DNA of 64,000 nt, taken from positions 248,001 to 312,000 of the forward strand of contig NZ_JAVDDT010000003.1 in assembly GCF_030848495.1 (NCBI RefSeq), read 5' to 3'. Numbering within the stretch: position 1 is the stretch's first letter; each line of letters opens with the position of its first letter. The notes under the pieces were generated by a model, which was given only the letters and a program-made list of their open reading frames with translations, ran no database searches and was not told the DNA's origin. Shown piece after piece: positions 54,709 through 60,416 of this stretch. The position numbers and the translations under genes were made by a program. The DNA is from Natronospira bacteriovora (lineage in GTDB: Bacteria; Pseudomonadota; Gammaproteobacteria; Natronospirales; Natronospiraceae).

Positions 54709-55998
54709 CTAGTGATCCCTTTGACCCAGTTCATGACGAATCACGCGGATCCAGCCCCTCTCCCGGCCCCAGTAAATGCCGACAACAAAGGCGACACCGT
54801 CAGCGTTCACATCCATTGAGTCGATGTCCAATGGCAGCTCCGTTTCCCTGAACAGAAGCAGATCCCTGTCCAGCTCCTTGATTACTCCCCGCCACTCACT
54901 GCTTGAGCCGCCCTGGGCAGCAATCGCGTAGCCCTCACCCAGAGGATCATTCTTCATGATCCATTCCATAAAGCCGCCGTCATCAAAAGCGTTCTCACGG
55001 AGAACATCGCCGCCAGAAGTGAACTTTCGAAGCTCATAGGTCTTGGCGTAACGCTGCGTCTGCACACCGATAAGAATGTTTCCGGCCGCATCGCTGGTAA
55101 TGGAACGAAACAACTCGCCTGATTCGAAAATCATCTGCTCCCGGAGTTCGTTGTCGGATCCCACAATACTGAGACGATCGAACTCTGACAGCGCCAACTC
55201 TTCCCCATCCCAGTCTTCAACCAGCACCTGGCGCACATTGACGGCCACATCGCCTGAAGGCAACACAGTCAAGGCCGCAGTGTCCCAGGTCATGAAGGGT
55301 TCTTCGCTGTCTTCGTCGATGAATCGTCGATACCAGAGCCGCTCACCATCAAGCTGATAGGCTGTCAGGATCGGCACAGTCCCATGATAGTGGCGCGAGT
55401 TCTGCCCATAGAATTCCGACCCACGCTCAAGGGAATTCACTCCGTCCGCACCGGCAATATACAAACGGTCATCGTGGGCAACGGCCATGCCGATCGGCTG
55501 AAAGTCAGCGTTCTCCGAGGCGACATCCCATTCCCTCAACAAATCGCCGTTGGCATCGAAGTGAAGCACCCGCCCCCGGCTGTTGCCTTGCTCAAGATAG
55601 TCAGTGCGTACGTCCACATCGTGATAGAGAGTAATGACCTGCCCGTTCGCCAGTACTTCCAGGCCTGCCATGGATCTGTGGATATCCTCATCCACTTGGG
55701 AAAAGGGAAAGCGGGTCCACAGGGGTTGCATGCGATCATCGTAAGCCCGGAGAAACTGAAGCCCCGGGGCTCCGAAATTATAGTGGTGTTGACGCGGTTC
55801 ACTGGTTCCAGCCACCACGAAGCCGCCATCCGGGCGCGCAGCCAGATGATAGACCCGGTCACCGCCATCGCTGCCGAAGGTTATGGATGCCTCATCCGAA
55901 GCGACTTCGGTGAAATGACTGGCATCATCGTCGCTGAAACAAGCGGCAAGCAGAAGGAGGCTGGCGAGTACGGGGGTGCACAAGAAAGGTTTCTTCAT
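54709..55998 (-). CDS. Hypothetical lipoprotein, probable beta-propeller
   Basis: 429 residues. Signal MKKPFLCTPVLASLLLLAAC with lipobox LAAC. Repeating segments of the type HLAARPDGGFVVAGTSE, EVLANGQVITLYHD, AVAHDDRLYIAGADG, TVLPSGDVAVNVRQ, ITSDAAGNILIGVQT and VNADGVAFVVGIYW, each about 50-60 residues apart, are typical of beta-propeller blades. No enzyme motif. Function unknown; possibly a cell-envelope binding protein. A weak AT-rich upstream region at 55999-56080. Confidence 0.7.
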   Translation of the reverse strand: MKKPFLCTPVLASLLLLAACFSDDDASHFTEVASDEASITFGSDGGDRVYHLAARPDGGFVVAGTSEPRQHHYNFGAPGLQFLRAYDDRMQPLWTRFPFSQVDEDIHRSMAGLEVLANGQVITLYHDVDVRTDYLEQGNSRGRVLHFDANGDLLREWDVASENADFQPIGMAVAHDDRLYIAGADGVNSLERGSEFYGQNSRHYHGTVPILTAYQLDGERLWYRRFIDEDSEEPFMTWDTAALTVLPSGDVAVNVRQVLVEDWDGEELALSEFDRLSIVGSDNELREQMIFESGELFRSITSDAAGNILIGVQTQRYAKTYELRKFTSGGDVLRENAFDDGGFMEWIMKNDPLGEGYAIAAQGGSSSEWRGVIKELDRDLLLFRETELPLDIDSMDVNADGVAFVVGIYWGRERGWIRVIRHELGQRDH

Positions 55999-56080: not shown

Positions 56081-57409
56081 CTACGCCGGTGGCGGGGGAT
56101 TATCAAGGACGCTGGCCGCCACCAGGTCGCCGGTGACATTCACCGTGGTGCGGCACATGTCCAGTATGCGGTCCACACCGATGATGAGGGCGATGCCCGA
56201 CGCCGGAATACCCACGCTGCCCAGCAGCATGGCGAGGATGACGATGCCGATGCCGGGGGTGCCCGGTGAACCGATGGAGGCACCCACGGCGAGGAATACC
56301 ACCAGCAGCAGGCCGGCCAGACCGATGTCGACACCGAATACCTGGGCCAGGAACAGGGTGGCCACCATCTGGTAAAGGGCGGTACCGGCCATGTTGATGG
56401 TGGTGCCCAGGGGAATGACGAAACGGGTCGTCGCCGCGCTGACCCCCAGGCGCGCTTCGGCCGTCTGCATGGTCAATGGCATGACCGCCGCCGAGCTGGA
56501 AGTGGAGAAGGCAAGCAACTGGGCGTCGCGAATGTTTCTCAGGAACAGGCGCGATGAACGGCCGGTGCGGATGCGATAGATGGCCAGATACATCAACAGC
56601 ACCAGCAGGAGACCGACGATGACGGTCAGGACATAAAGCCCCATGCCGAACAGGGCATCCAGGCCCAGCCGCGTGGTGATCTGAGCCAGCAAACCGAAAA
56701 CGGCAAAGGGCACGATGATCATGGCCCAGCGCACCACCACCATGGTGATTTCCTGCACCGAAGCCAGCAGTTCCAGCAGCGGGCGCTGGTGCTTCGGGGG
56801 CAGGCTGACCAGGGCCACGCCAATGAGAATGGCGAACACCACCACCTGCATCATGTTCTGTTCCAGACCCGCCTTGAGCGGGTTGGCCGGAATCATTTCG
56901 CTCAGGCGAGAGGGCAGATCCTGGCGTGCCAGGCCTGGCGCCGGAATGGTTTCGGCATTCTCCGGCACGGGACGCAGTTCCGCCTGGATGCTGGCAGCAT
57001 CCATGTAGAGGCCGGGCTGAATGCTGAGCGCCACCGCCATGCCGATCAGCACCGCCGCCAAGGTGGTGACGACGAAGAAGGCAGCGGCCCGCAGCCCCAC
57101 ACTGCGCAGGGACTCCATGCTCTCGCTGGAGGCCATGCCGAGAATGATGGAGGCCACCACCAGCGGAATCACGATCATCTGGATCAGTGCCAGGAAGACA
57201 TAACCGGGCAGTGCCAGCCAGTTGGTGATCAAGGCGGCCATGCCAGGATCGACCAGCCCGGCATCCGGACCCAGAACCAGGCCCGTGGCGATGCCGAGAA
57301 ACATGGCCAGCATCACCTTGGCCCAGAGATGACTGCGAAGCAGGCCCTTGAGGCGGCCGGCAAGACGATGTACCGGACTGAGTGAAGCGCCGCTGATGGT
57401 TTCGCTCAT
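56081..57409 (-). CDS. Dicarboxylate/amino acid:cation symporter (DAACS)
   Basis: 442 residues. Eight-helix glutamate-transporter fold: AMFLGIATGLVLG, IQMIVIPLVVASIILG, the serine-rich hairpin AFSTSSSAAVMPLTMQTAEA, PLGTTINMAGTALYQ (NMxGT-like motif), and GTPGIGIVILAMLLGSVGIP. Sodium- or proton-coupled uptake of glutamate, aspartate or C4-dicarboxylates. Monocistronic. Confidence 0.92.
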   Translation of the reverse strand: MSETISGASLSPVHRLAGRLKGLLRSHLWAKVMLAMFLGIATGLVLGPDAGLVDPGMAALITNWLALPGYVFLALIQMIVIPLVVASIILGMASSESMESLRSVGLRAAAFFVVTTLAAVLIGMAVALSIQPGLYMDAASIQAELRPVPENAETIPAPGLARQDLPSRLSEMIPANPLKAGLEQNMMQVVVFAILIGVALVSLPPKHQRPLLELLASVQEITMVVVRWAMIIVPFAVFGLLAQITTRLGLDALFGMGLYVLTVIVGLLLVLLMYLAIYRIRTGRSSRLFLRNIRDAQLLAFSTSSSAAVMPLTMQTAEARLGVSAATTRFVIPLGTTINMAGTALYQMVATLFLAQVFGVDIGLAGLLLVVFLAVGASIGSPGTPGIGIVILAMLLGSVGIPASGIALIIGVDRILDMCRTTVNVTGDLVAASVLDNPPPPA

Positions 57410-57479
57410 ACTGTCACGATTCCGAAGGAAAGCCTGCCTATCAGCATAGACATTGTGGCGGCGATCTGGAAAACCGGGC

Positions 57480-57971
57480 TCAAAGCCTCAGCAGGCGCAT
57501 GGACACGCGCTTGCCGGTGCGACTGTCCTGACGGCTGCCCACTTCCTCGAAGCCGAAGCTCTCATGAAAGGCGCGGGAACGGGGGTTGGGCGGATTGAGG
57601 TCGAATTCGCAGCAGACATGATCAATGCCGCGATTCAGTGCCTGGGAAAAGAGATCTTCGTAAAGCTGGCTGCCAAGCCCTGTTCCCTGGGCCGCCGTAG
57701 CCACCACCAGGCGATCCACATAGAGGAAATGATCATAGCGGCGGGTAAACCAGGCGTAGTTGCTGCTGTCATAGTCCGCCCCCTCACGGAAGGCGAGGAG
57801 GAAGGCGAGTACCGCCTTCCCCTCCGCTTCCGTGATCACACGATGATAGGCGGCCATGCCGTGAAGCCGCGCCAGGCGCTCGGAGTCCAGCGGGCTGAGG
57901 AAGTGCTCCCATTCCCGGTTGAGGCTGAGAATGGCACCAAGATCATCCAGTCTGGCATCCCGCAGCCTCAT
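57480..57971 (-). CDS. GNAT-family N-acetyltransferase
   Basis: 163 residues. MRLRDARLDDLGAILSLNREWEHFLSPL at the start; YVDRLVVATAAQGTGLGSQLYEDLFSQA is the acetyl-CoA pyrophosphate loop (Q/RxxGxG/A). Substrate unknown. The ATG overlaps the protease stop by four bases, which ties it to the protease operon, an unusual pairing. Confidence 0.87.
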   Translation of the reverse strand: MRLRDARLDDLGAILSLNREWEHFLSPLDSERLARLHGMAAYHRVITEAEGKAVLAFLLAFREGADYDSSNYAWFTRRYDHFLYVDRLVVATAAQGTGLGSQLYEDLFSQALNRGIDHVCCEFDLNPPNPRSRAFHESFGFEEVGSRQDSRTGKRVSMRLLRL

Positions 57972-59845
57972 GCGCCTCCCGAGTGACGCCGCCGGGCCAA
58001 CACGGCCAGGCCGGCCAGGCCCAACAGCAGCCAGAGCAAGGGGTCGGGTCGAGTCGTTTGCGCCAGACTGCAGCCGCTACTGCTGCCACCACCGCCGCTG
58101 CTCACTGTTGCACGTACTGTATAGCTAGTGGCTTCATAGCCGTGCACGCTGACGTACCAGGTGCCGGACTGCGGGTTATCGAATTCGCAGGTCTCTTCGC
58201 TGGTTCCTCCAAGGAAGGGACGGCAATCAAAACTGGACGACTGGGGCAGGTTGCCACGGCGCACGTACAGGTCACCATCCGCCGTCAGTTCATTGAGGCG
58301 GACCGTCAGCCTGGACGTACCGGAAGACACCTCGATACTGTAATCCGACCATTCACCCTGAACCACACTGCCGGAACGGCTGACACCACTTTCAAGGGAC
58401 CTTACCTCGCCACGCTCCGGTGGCTCTACCAGGTCATCCTCCTCACACTCACCACCCGGCTCACCGCCCAGCCAGTCGGCCAGACAGTTATGGCTGTAGT
58501 CGAAACGCCCGTACCAGTCCGGCAGCCCATTATCCTGATCGCCACTGCAGGCGGCGGCACCACCATGGAGATTGCCGATTACCCGATAGTCATCCGCGAA
58601 AAGGGCCGAACCACTGCTGCCCGGCTCCGTGGTACCACTCAAAGACCAGATCACGCGAAGATAATCCGCCTCCGGATCATTGCCGGAACCCCCATAGCCG
58701 CTATACCCCTGCACGTCCCCAAAGCTGATCTTCTTGATATCACCACTCGGATGATGAATGGCTGTGACGATGTCGCCCAGCGGCGGCATGGTGGTGGACC
58801 ATCCGGCGAACACCACACCATCAGGCGGTGTGTCATTCAACTGAACCAGGGTAAAGTCGGTATTCGTGCCGGTGGCGAGCAGATTGGCACCATTATTGCG
58901 GGAAATCACCGAAGTGGGATCCGCACCGCCGCACTCTTCTCGCTGGAAAAACCAATAGGTCACCATGCTGGAAGCCGCATTCTGGTTGTCCACGCAATGG
59001 TTTGCCGTCAGAAACCAGGGCGTCTCGCTGCTATCGGTGTCATTGAGCAGGGTTCCGGTGCACATGGACGTGGAACCGCTTGAAGTGGTGAAAAAATACT
59101 TGGCCACACTTTCACCCGTCTCCCGCCAGTCCGCATCCTCTTCACAGTTCACATCGACATTGCAGGCACCGGAATTGCCAAGCTGACCGAGGTTTTTCAG
59201 CTGAAACCCTTTTTCGGCGGACGTCAGCAAATGGGAGAGACGAGGAATCATCAATGAGTGTCCGGCCAACGGTGCCTCCGCCGGCAGATACAGTTCCATG
59301 CCCAATCGCTCCCCATGCATTACCGGCGACCAGTAGAGCTCGGTCTCCTGATTGGCGAGCATGCTCATCCGATTCGCACCATACGTCTCACTGACCTGGT
59401 CGCTGCGATCGGCGGCAAAGAAACGGATTTCGCTGCCCTTGGGGAGGCCTCGAGGCCGAAGACCTGCCCGCAAGGCACTGGCCTGGGGCGAATGCAGAAC
59501 AACATGGGCAACGCGACCGCCGTCCTCCAGACGTGACCAATGCAGACTTGGCAGGTCGAAGGTGCCGTGAGCGAGTTCTCTGGAAAGACCGATTTCCAGC
59601 CGTTTCTGCTGCTGGTTTCGCTCCAGGAGGGCCCGAATTTCATCGTCTGCCACTGGATCCAGACGTAGGTGCTGGATCAAATCAGGCTCCGGCGTCTTTC
59701 GCAAATCATGGGTTTGCTCCGGGGCTCCGGTGGAAGACGGTCGATGACTGTCCACATTGATACCGGCAAAGGCCGTGGACATTAGCAACGTAAGCACCAG
59801 TGTCGCGGTCAGGGAAAGCCTGGGAAGGACGGGCAAGGTTTTCAT
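57968..59845 (-). CDS. Secreted trypsin-like serine protease with PPC domain and C-terminal anchor
   Basis: 625 residues. Signal peptide (1-27), N-terminal domain (about 90-210), trypsin-like domain with triad H283 (LTANHCVDN), D330 (NTDFTLVQL) and S411 (EPGSSGSALF), a PPC domain (about 485-580), and a C-terminal sorting-type signal: Gly/Ser linker, GCSLA, hydrophobic helix 602-617 and RRR. The GC..helix..RRR arrangement fits CTERM-type sorting signals; which sortase class is unclear. Probably processed and surface-anchored. GGGGG before ATG 59845. Middle gene of a lipoprotein-protease-GNAT operon. Confidence 0.9.
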   Translation of the reverse strand: MKTLPVLPRLSLTATLVLTLLMSTAFAGINVDSHRPSSTGAPEQTHDLRKTPEPDLIQHLRLDPVADDEIRALLERNQQQKRLEIGLSRELAHGTFDLPSLHWSRLEDGGRVAHVVLHSPQASALRAGLRPRGLPKGSEIRFFAADRSDQVSETYGANRMSMLANQETELYWSPVMHGERLGMELYLPAEAPLAGHSLMIPRLSHLLTSAEKGFQLKNLGQLGNSGACNVDVNCEEDADWRETGESVAKYFFTTSSGSTSMCTGTLLNDTDSSETPWFLTANHCVDNQNAASSMVTYWFFQREECGGADPTSVISRNNGANLLATGTNTDFTLVQLNDTPPDGVVFAGWSTTMPPLGDIVTAIHHPSGDIKKISFGDVQGYSGYGGSGNDPEADYLRVIWSLSGTTEPGSSGSALFADDYRVIGNLHGGAAACSGDQDNGLPDWYGRFDYSHNCLADWLGGEPGGECEEDDLVEPPERGEVRSLESGVSRSGSVVQGEWSDYSIEVSSGTSRLTVRLNELTADGDLYVRRGNLPQSSSFDCRPFLGGTSEETCEFDNPQSGTWYVSVHGYEATSYTVRATVSSGGGGSSSGCSLAQTTRPDPLLWLLLGLAGLAVLARRRHSGGA

Positions 59846-59864
59846 TATTCATACCCCCAAAAAA

Positions 59865-60416
59865 TCAATAAAGGTGAGAGATCATTTCAACACGGATTGC
59901 GCAGCCTTCCAGACTGAACTTCCCTGCATGAGTCAGCCATACCTGACTGACTTCCCCCTGTGTCACTGGCGACCACCAGATATTCTGTTCATTCCTCAAC
60001 ATGTAGGCGCTGATGGCTTCTCCGGGCTGCTCGCCCTCGCCGGCAAAACGAAGTTGCAATCCGCAGTCCCGACCATTCAGCAACTTCAGCCCGAGACGGA
60101 GCCCCGAAGCGCCGGGCGAACGCACCGCGAAACGGCTCGTTCGGTGATCGCCTTTCCGGGTCCATTCAAGAGTAGCCAGATCGATCAGCTGTTGCCCCTC
60201 CGGCACCTTGCGGCCAATACCCGCCAGCGGTGGCTCTGCTTCCAGCTTGTCACCGGCCGTCAACGCCTCGCGCTCTTCCGCCGTCAAGGGGGGCAGCTCG
60301 ATCAAATGAGGGCTTGTGGCAGCGGGTGGCGATTCCGCGACACGTGTCCCGTTACAGGCAGCGTTCAGCAAAATGAGCAACAACAGGAAGGCGGGGAAAA
60401 GCAGGCGTGAATTCAC
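59865..60416 (-). CDS. Lipoprotein homologous to the protease N-terminal domain
   Basis: 183 residues starting at GTG 60414-60416 (TTG 60429-60431 is an in-frame alternative); a GAGGG site lies nine bases before the GTG. Lipoprotein signal with cysteine at residue 21 (LNAAC). From about residue 80 it aligns with protease residues 99-206: shared LxWxR, VxSPxASxLRxGL, RFA, YWSPV/WWSPVxxGE, and a final SHL. There is no protease domain. Nineteen bases upstream of the protease gene. It may be a free prodomain acting as inhibitor, chaperone or tether; that is inference. Confidence 0.78.
   Translation of the reverse strand: MNSRLLFPAFLLLLILLNAACNGTRVAESPPAATSPHLIELPPLTAEEREALTAGDKLEAEPPLAGIGRKVPEGQQLIDLATLEWTRKGDHRTSRFAVRSPGASGLRLGLKLLNGRDCGLQLRFAGEGEQPGEAISAYMLRNEQNIWWSPVTQGEVSQVWLTHAGKFSLEGCAIRVEMISHLY

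Follow-up and report, generated by a model that had tools for sequence, protein, structure and literature searches.

The window analysed here is a 64,000-nucleotide stretch of a Natronospira bacteriovora contig (NZ_JAVDDT010000003.1). Three open reading frames are found on its minus strand at the positions given by a preliminary description of this DNA (Table 1). They encode a free-standing lipoprotein, a secreted serine protease and a GNAT acetyltransferase, and the genes are co-directional in that order. The lipoprotein gene has a GTG start with a GAGGG ribosome-binding site ahead of it and lies upstream of the protease gene, from which it is separated by a gap of 19 bases. The GNAT start and the protease stop overlap by four bases, ATGA.

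Table 1. Positions in the window of the three genes and of the parts of the protease
Feature	Position	Strand	Basis or remark
Free-standing propeptide-like lipoprotein, 183 aa	59865–60416	-	Open reading frame call
Secreted LEP-type serine protease, 625 aa	57968–59845	-	Open reading frame call, ATG start
GNAT acetyltransferase	57480–57971	-	Open reading frame call and comparison with congeners; judged to lie outside the system
Protease region homologous to the lipoprotein, residues ~50–206	59228–59698	-	Alignment
Propeptide-to-mature linker, LTSAEKGFQLKNLGQLG region, two Lys	59177–59227	-	Missing from the lipoprotein
Catalytic domain of the protease	58481–59179	-	Alignment to LEP structures
Protease parts, by residue			Signal peptide; propeptide ~28–222; trypsin-like catalytic domain ~223–455; PPC 501–569; JDVT-CTERM tail 587–621

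The protease, the lipoprotein and their shared domain

The protease displays the Pfam and NCBIfam domains Trypsin_2, PPC and JDVT-CTERM, and the GNAT matches an acetyltransferase family. A phmmer search with its catalytic domain gives 4nsy (E = 2.2e-34) and Achromobacter protease I (E = 7.5e-30), and the top Foldseek matches of the predicted protease structure are 4nsy, 4nsv and 1arb, all of which are lysyl endopeptidase (LEP) entries. By these comparisons the protease is a member of the LEP family (LEP/protease IV/Achromobacter protease I). Alignment places the catalytic triad at His283, Asp330 and Ser411. Specificity for lysine is predicted as well, because the aligned counterparts of His427 and Asp443 in Achromobacter protease I are His210 and Asp225, which we take to be the determinants of lysine specificity in that enzyme. 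The propeptide of the window protease is complete and keeps nearly every position that is conserved among fused propeptides. In the AlphaFold2 model, residues 215–224 of the linker that follows it are predicted to be disordered, and Lys217 is inside this segment.

The JDVT-CTERM tail of the protease scores 31.8 bits with NF033191 (cut-off 27). The sorting protease MrtJ (NF033192, 109.4 bits, cut-off 75) and the type II secretion secretin GspD are both encoded in the window genome, thus the protease is expected to cross the periplasm and then to reach the cell surface. Surface sorting of a JDVT-CTERM protease is proposed by analogy with MYXO-CTERM (PMC11980579). Elsewhere in the same genome (contig C6, about 175.6–181.3 kb, loci L013 and L017) adjoining genes encode subtilisin-like proteases of ~660 aa with a PPC domain as in the window protease, and therefore the genome encodes several secreted proteases.

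The lipoprotein matches no Pfam or NCBIfam family. It has a signal peptide with a predicted lipidation site at Cys21. The lipobox that had been ascribed to it would be LNAAC, in which the Asn at position -3 is atypical; the lipobox is canonical in the two relatives described below, LAAC in genome G369 and LAGC in genome G181. In Lol sorting, a lipoprotein whose +2 residue is not Asp is expected in the outer membrane. The +2 residue here is Asn, and an outer-membrane location is therefore predicted.

A pattern common to the lipoprotein and to residues 99–206 of the protease had been noticed by eye in the preliminary description. The similarity is real and extends further: BLASTP shows 32% identity over protease residues 54–206 (E = 2e-11), and in an end-to-end alignment the lipoprotein and the propeptide score 133, whereas 2000 shuffles average 30.8 (sd 5.0) and reach at most 57, which gives a z of 20.6. 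The lipoprotein matches chain I of PDB entry 9omd, a "lysyl endopeptidase propeptide", with E = 1.3e-9. The protease propeptide matches the same chain with E = 2.3e-7, and a joint profile of both sequences matches it with E = 4.7e-25. This chain, the structure of which was determined with its enzyme, is the sole solved relative of either sequence in the shared region.

The lipoprotein and the pro-protease were both modelled with AlphaFold2 (pLDDT 84 and pTM 0.79 for the former, pLDDT 86 and pTM 0.88 for the latter). The two models agree in strand order and in their N-terminal helix; they differ by one strand and one helix at model residues 120–137, which are found in the protease only. A Foldseek search with the lipoprotein model gave weak CUB/PPC-like beta-sandwich matches, the best with a TM of 0.37, and 9omd was absent among the matches listed.

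The lipoprotein sequence ends with SHLY, one residue past the shared SHL and ahead of the Lys-bearing cleavage linker, and the beta-sandwich reaches the last residue. Absence of a catalytic domain, as first described, is thus borne out. The combined comparisons support the view that the lipoprotein is a separate homologue of the LEP propeptide without a catalytic domain. Because its open reading frame stops at SHLY and is unfused, it is better termed a homologue of the propeptide domain than a propeptide in the strict sense. Besides the lipidation Cys there are two further Cys residues in the window lipoprotein (mature positions 98 and 152) and two in that of G181 (L039:6321-7031), apparently at non-equivalent positions; most fused propeptides have none. 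A disulfide is possible in each of these two lipoproteins.

Distribution and divergence

The profile of the domain matches 3 of the 19 genomes of the order, i.e. the window genome, G369 and G181, and each has a free-standing lipoprotein. A search for the pair in other genomes, which had been suggested at the outset, finds lipoprotein and protease together again in G369, and this recurrence together with the homology to 9omd_I upholds the earlier reading of a stand-alone propeptide domain. In G369 the lipoprotein gene and the start of the protease gene share four bases. The window genome and G369, in which the two genes adjoin, belong to different families of the order. The protease frame of G369 (L040:5439-6835, G369:C20) is broken between propeptide and catalytic domain into two overlapping frames. 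About 80 residues seem to be missing at the junction, i.e. the second half of the propeptide and the start of the mature enzyme, and a masked run of N is found further on; the interruption may be either a mutation or a misassembly. In G181, which is rated 100% complete, the lipoprotein gene is between unrelated genes and a genome search found no LEP catalytic domain.

In 250 genomes of another order, nearly all domain matches are within long, protease-sized frames. A catalytic domain accompanies the propeptide domain in 51 of 52 domain-bearing open reading frames (80 named LEP loci), and the one frame without it comes from a protease gene that is broken. Evenly drawn samples of the class and of the phylum gave no convincing additional stand-alone copy. 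Further candidate short frames come from G418 (at a contig end), G503 and G567 (sample of the other order) and G996 (evenly drawn samples). As the first-look step of the profile search takes no more than a limited set of candidates from each genome for scoring, rare stand-alone copies may be missed. The related-locus search with the lipoprotein alone as query gave no match. Three candidates for free-standing propeptides were rejected: L037 of G229 is a protease cut off by the contig end, L101 of Bdellovibrio is a protease gene interrupted by a stop codon, and the match in G275, in a frame that lies opposite a gene resembling elongation factor G, is due to chance. With three members, and with the domain essentially always fused to a protease elsewhere, the free-standing lipoprotein appears rare, specific to the order and fast-evolving.

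A tree of 62 propeptide domains gives the three lipoproteins end branches of 1.56–3.37, compared with a median of 0.42. The window lipoprotein and the neighbouring propeptide are not placed together. The data do not reject one clade for the three lipoproteins (p = 0.095), nor one for all five sequences of the order (p = 0.084). That the adjacent propeptide was recently duplicated was considered and is not supported, given the 32% identity, the long branches and the tree placement.

Residues of the fold core are kept in the window lipoprotein, i.e. the equivalents of W103, W172, A122, G178 and L101. At the position of Glu184, a residue shared by 98% of 57 fused propeptides, the window lipoprotein has Trp and the G181 lipoprotein has Arg. 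Pro188 (88% of fused propeptides) is lost in all three lipoproteins and is Ala in the window. If these positions touch the enzyme, the changes may result in weak or altered binding. Very long branches, as seen for each of the three lipoproteins, the loss of near-invariant residues and the orphan gene in G181 would also be expected if the beta-sandwich had taken on an unrelated task in the envelope and had lost its interaction with the protease. That the protease gene adjoins in members of two families of the order speaks against such recruitment, which we consider improbable.

The GNAT gene and the SDF symporter

The preliminary description had included the GNAT enzyme in a three-part system, in which it could modify the protease, its inhibitor or a product. 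The overlap of its start with the protease stop is the feature that favors this proposal, and the overlap does exist; as a sign of shared function, however, it does not stand up to comparison with the congeners. Orthologues of the GNAT (57%–59% identity) are present in congeners G288 and G371, adjoining an SDF symporter that is 86%–87% identical to that of the window, and neither protease nor lipoprotein was found in these two genomes. Conversely, G369 has the lipoprotein and protease pair, and no GNAT orthologue was found in G369 or G181. The cellular compartments also differ: GNAT enzymes are cytoplasmic, whereas the protease and the lipoprotein are exported. A three-gene system is accordingly given very little credence.

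In both congeners the gene upstream of the GNAT encodes an ABC_trans_aux lipoprotein, the last in an MlaE/ATPase/MlaD operon, and in G288 the GNAT start overlaps this gene by four bases. The window genome has an mla-like operon on another contig, without a GNAT. The GNAT and the SDF symporter are thus a conserved pair in the genus and the upstream gene varies (L159 and L160 compared with window positions 56081–57971). By this comparison of gene order there is a rearrangement breakpoint near the GNAT start codon. The GNAT thus belongs with the symporter, and its overlap with the protease gene is a local junction. Downstream of the symporter gene, at positions 54709–55998 on the minus strand, is an open reading frame for a predicted lipoprotein of 429 aa (lipobox LLAAC) without a Pfam family above threshold.

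Possible functions of the lipoprotein

On the usual view, the propeptide of a secreted bacterial protease works once, in cis, and is then destroyed. Protease IV of P. aeruginosa is an enzyme of the LEP family; its propeptide, purified and supplied in trans, binds the mature form and inhibits it, and has been likened to a "safety pin" in the periplasm (PMC5493658; PMC8549743). A separate propeptide can therefore inhibit. The propeptide homology, the conserved lipoprotein-type signal, the co-directional adjacency in two genomes and the loss of the cleavage linker form the basis of the following proposal. A propeptide of the LEP family would have been duplicated and split off as a separate lipoprotein, which would be exported, lipidated and anchored in the outer membrane by its +2 residue. 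There it would act in trans, binding the catalytic domain of the protease encoded next to it and keeping prematurely matured protease inactive before exit. The protease would leave by type II secretion and then be sorted via its JDVT-CTERM tail, and the outcome would be a membrane-tethered inhibitor that protects the producer from its own protease.

This restraint of the protease in the periplasm is suggested because the protease IV propeptide inhibits, the protease is expected to cross the periplasm and the lipoprotein is expected in the outer membrane; we put it forward tentatively, at somewhat short of an even chance. Among the ideas of an inhibitor, a folding catalyst and a receptor, the inhibitor is the most economical. 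The position of the lipoprotein gene first, 19 bases ahead of the protease gene in the window or with the four-base overlap in G369, would support it, as would a lipobox in all three lipoproteins, two of them canonical. The lipoprotein kept by G181 in the absence of a LEP catalytic domain also agrees better with immunity than with a dedicated foldase. Product-like inhibition by a tail in the active site would be unavailable to the lipoprotein, because its open reading frame stops before the Lys-bearing tail. The changes at Glu184 and Pro188, a membership of three, and an orphan in G181 that could equally have been recruited to another task may also count against an inhibitor. A linker-less, lipid-anchored homologue might also serve as an immunity module that neutralizes the cell's own LEP and, as the orphan of G181, the LEPs of neighbors. 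We regard such a module as unlikely.

Lipases that depend on Lif/LipH are not known to have a propeptide of their own. Lif/LipH is likewise separate and membrane-anchored, and is a steric chaperone for a secreted enzyme (PMC13381987); the protein and its client are however unrelated to those at this locus, and the window protease has its own propeptide. Since propeptides of secreted proteases act as steric chaperones and a membrane-anchored foldase is known for lipases (PMC13381987; PMC3352829), the lipoprotein might similarly aid folding of the protease or escort it to the secretion machinery. A copy acting in trans could matter in G369, where the protease seems to be without the second half of its propeptide in the assembly. 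The complete propeptide of the window protease leaves no obvious need for a second folding factor, the lipoprotein of G181 has no client, and about 90–100 fused relatives do without a separate copy. A folding helper thus has a low probability.

The predicted lipid anchor would also suit a docking protein or receptor that holds the mature protease at the cell surface, or recaptures secreted protease, without inhibition. Loss of the linker and of Glu184 could separate binding from inhibition, and the protease has its own sorting tail with MrtJ in the genome. That tail is however already predicted to anchor the protease at the surface, which would make a second anchor redundant, and the orphan of G181 has no partner. 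Docking is doubtful on these grounds.

Returning to the tethered inhibitor, the domain, the enzyme family and the concept of a stand-alone propeptide inhibitor are already known, the last from SUB1-ProM and animal cathepsin inhibitors. A free-standing or lipid-anchored LEP propeptide was not found described in the open-access papers searched. The earlier statement that no such system has been described is nevertheless too strong, as SUB1-ProM of Plasmodium is likewise a stand-alone propeptide-like protein encoded beside protease genes, and there it is a potent inhibitor (PMC6993865). It is the nearest analogue of the window lipoprotein, but it is a subtilisin-family protein of a eukaryote, located in the parasitophorous vacuole and belonging to an unrelated protease family (PMC6993865). 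Crammer-type inhibitors also represent a propeptide domain freed from its protease and acting in trans, however they belong to an animal cysteine-protease family, have an unrelated domain and have no membrane anchor (PMC3551606). The LEP propeptides themselves (9omd_I and that of protease IV, which inhibits when supplied separately; PMC5493658; PMC8549743) are homologous in the domain. The window lipoprotein differs from these in its separate gene, predicted lipid anchor, missing C-terminal linker, extra Cys residues and altered conserved residues, and the window enzyme retains its own propeptide beside the separate copy.

If the proposal is correct, a separate membrane-anchored propeptide would be a permanent safeguard of the envelope, and this rare arrangement may shield the producer from its own protease or from that of other bacteria. 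Orphan copies that guard against foreign proteases would represent a simple strategy of inter-bacterial immunity. In that case there would also be a natural scaffold on which inhibitors specific to protease IV-type enzymes could be built. With a separate gene for the lipoprotein, the part of a propeptide in folding and its part in inhibition could be tested independently.
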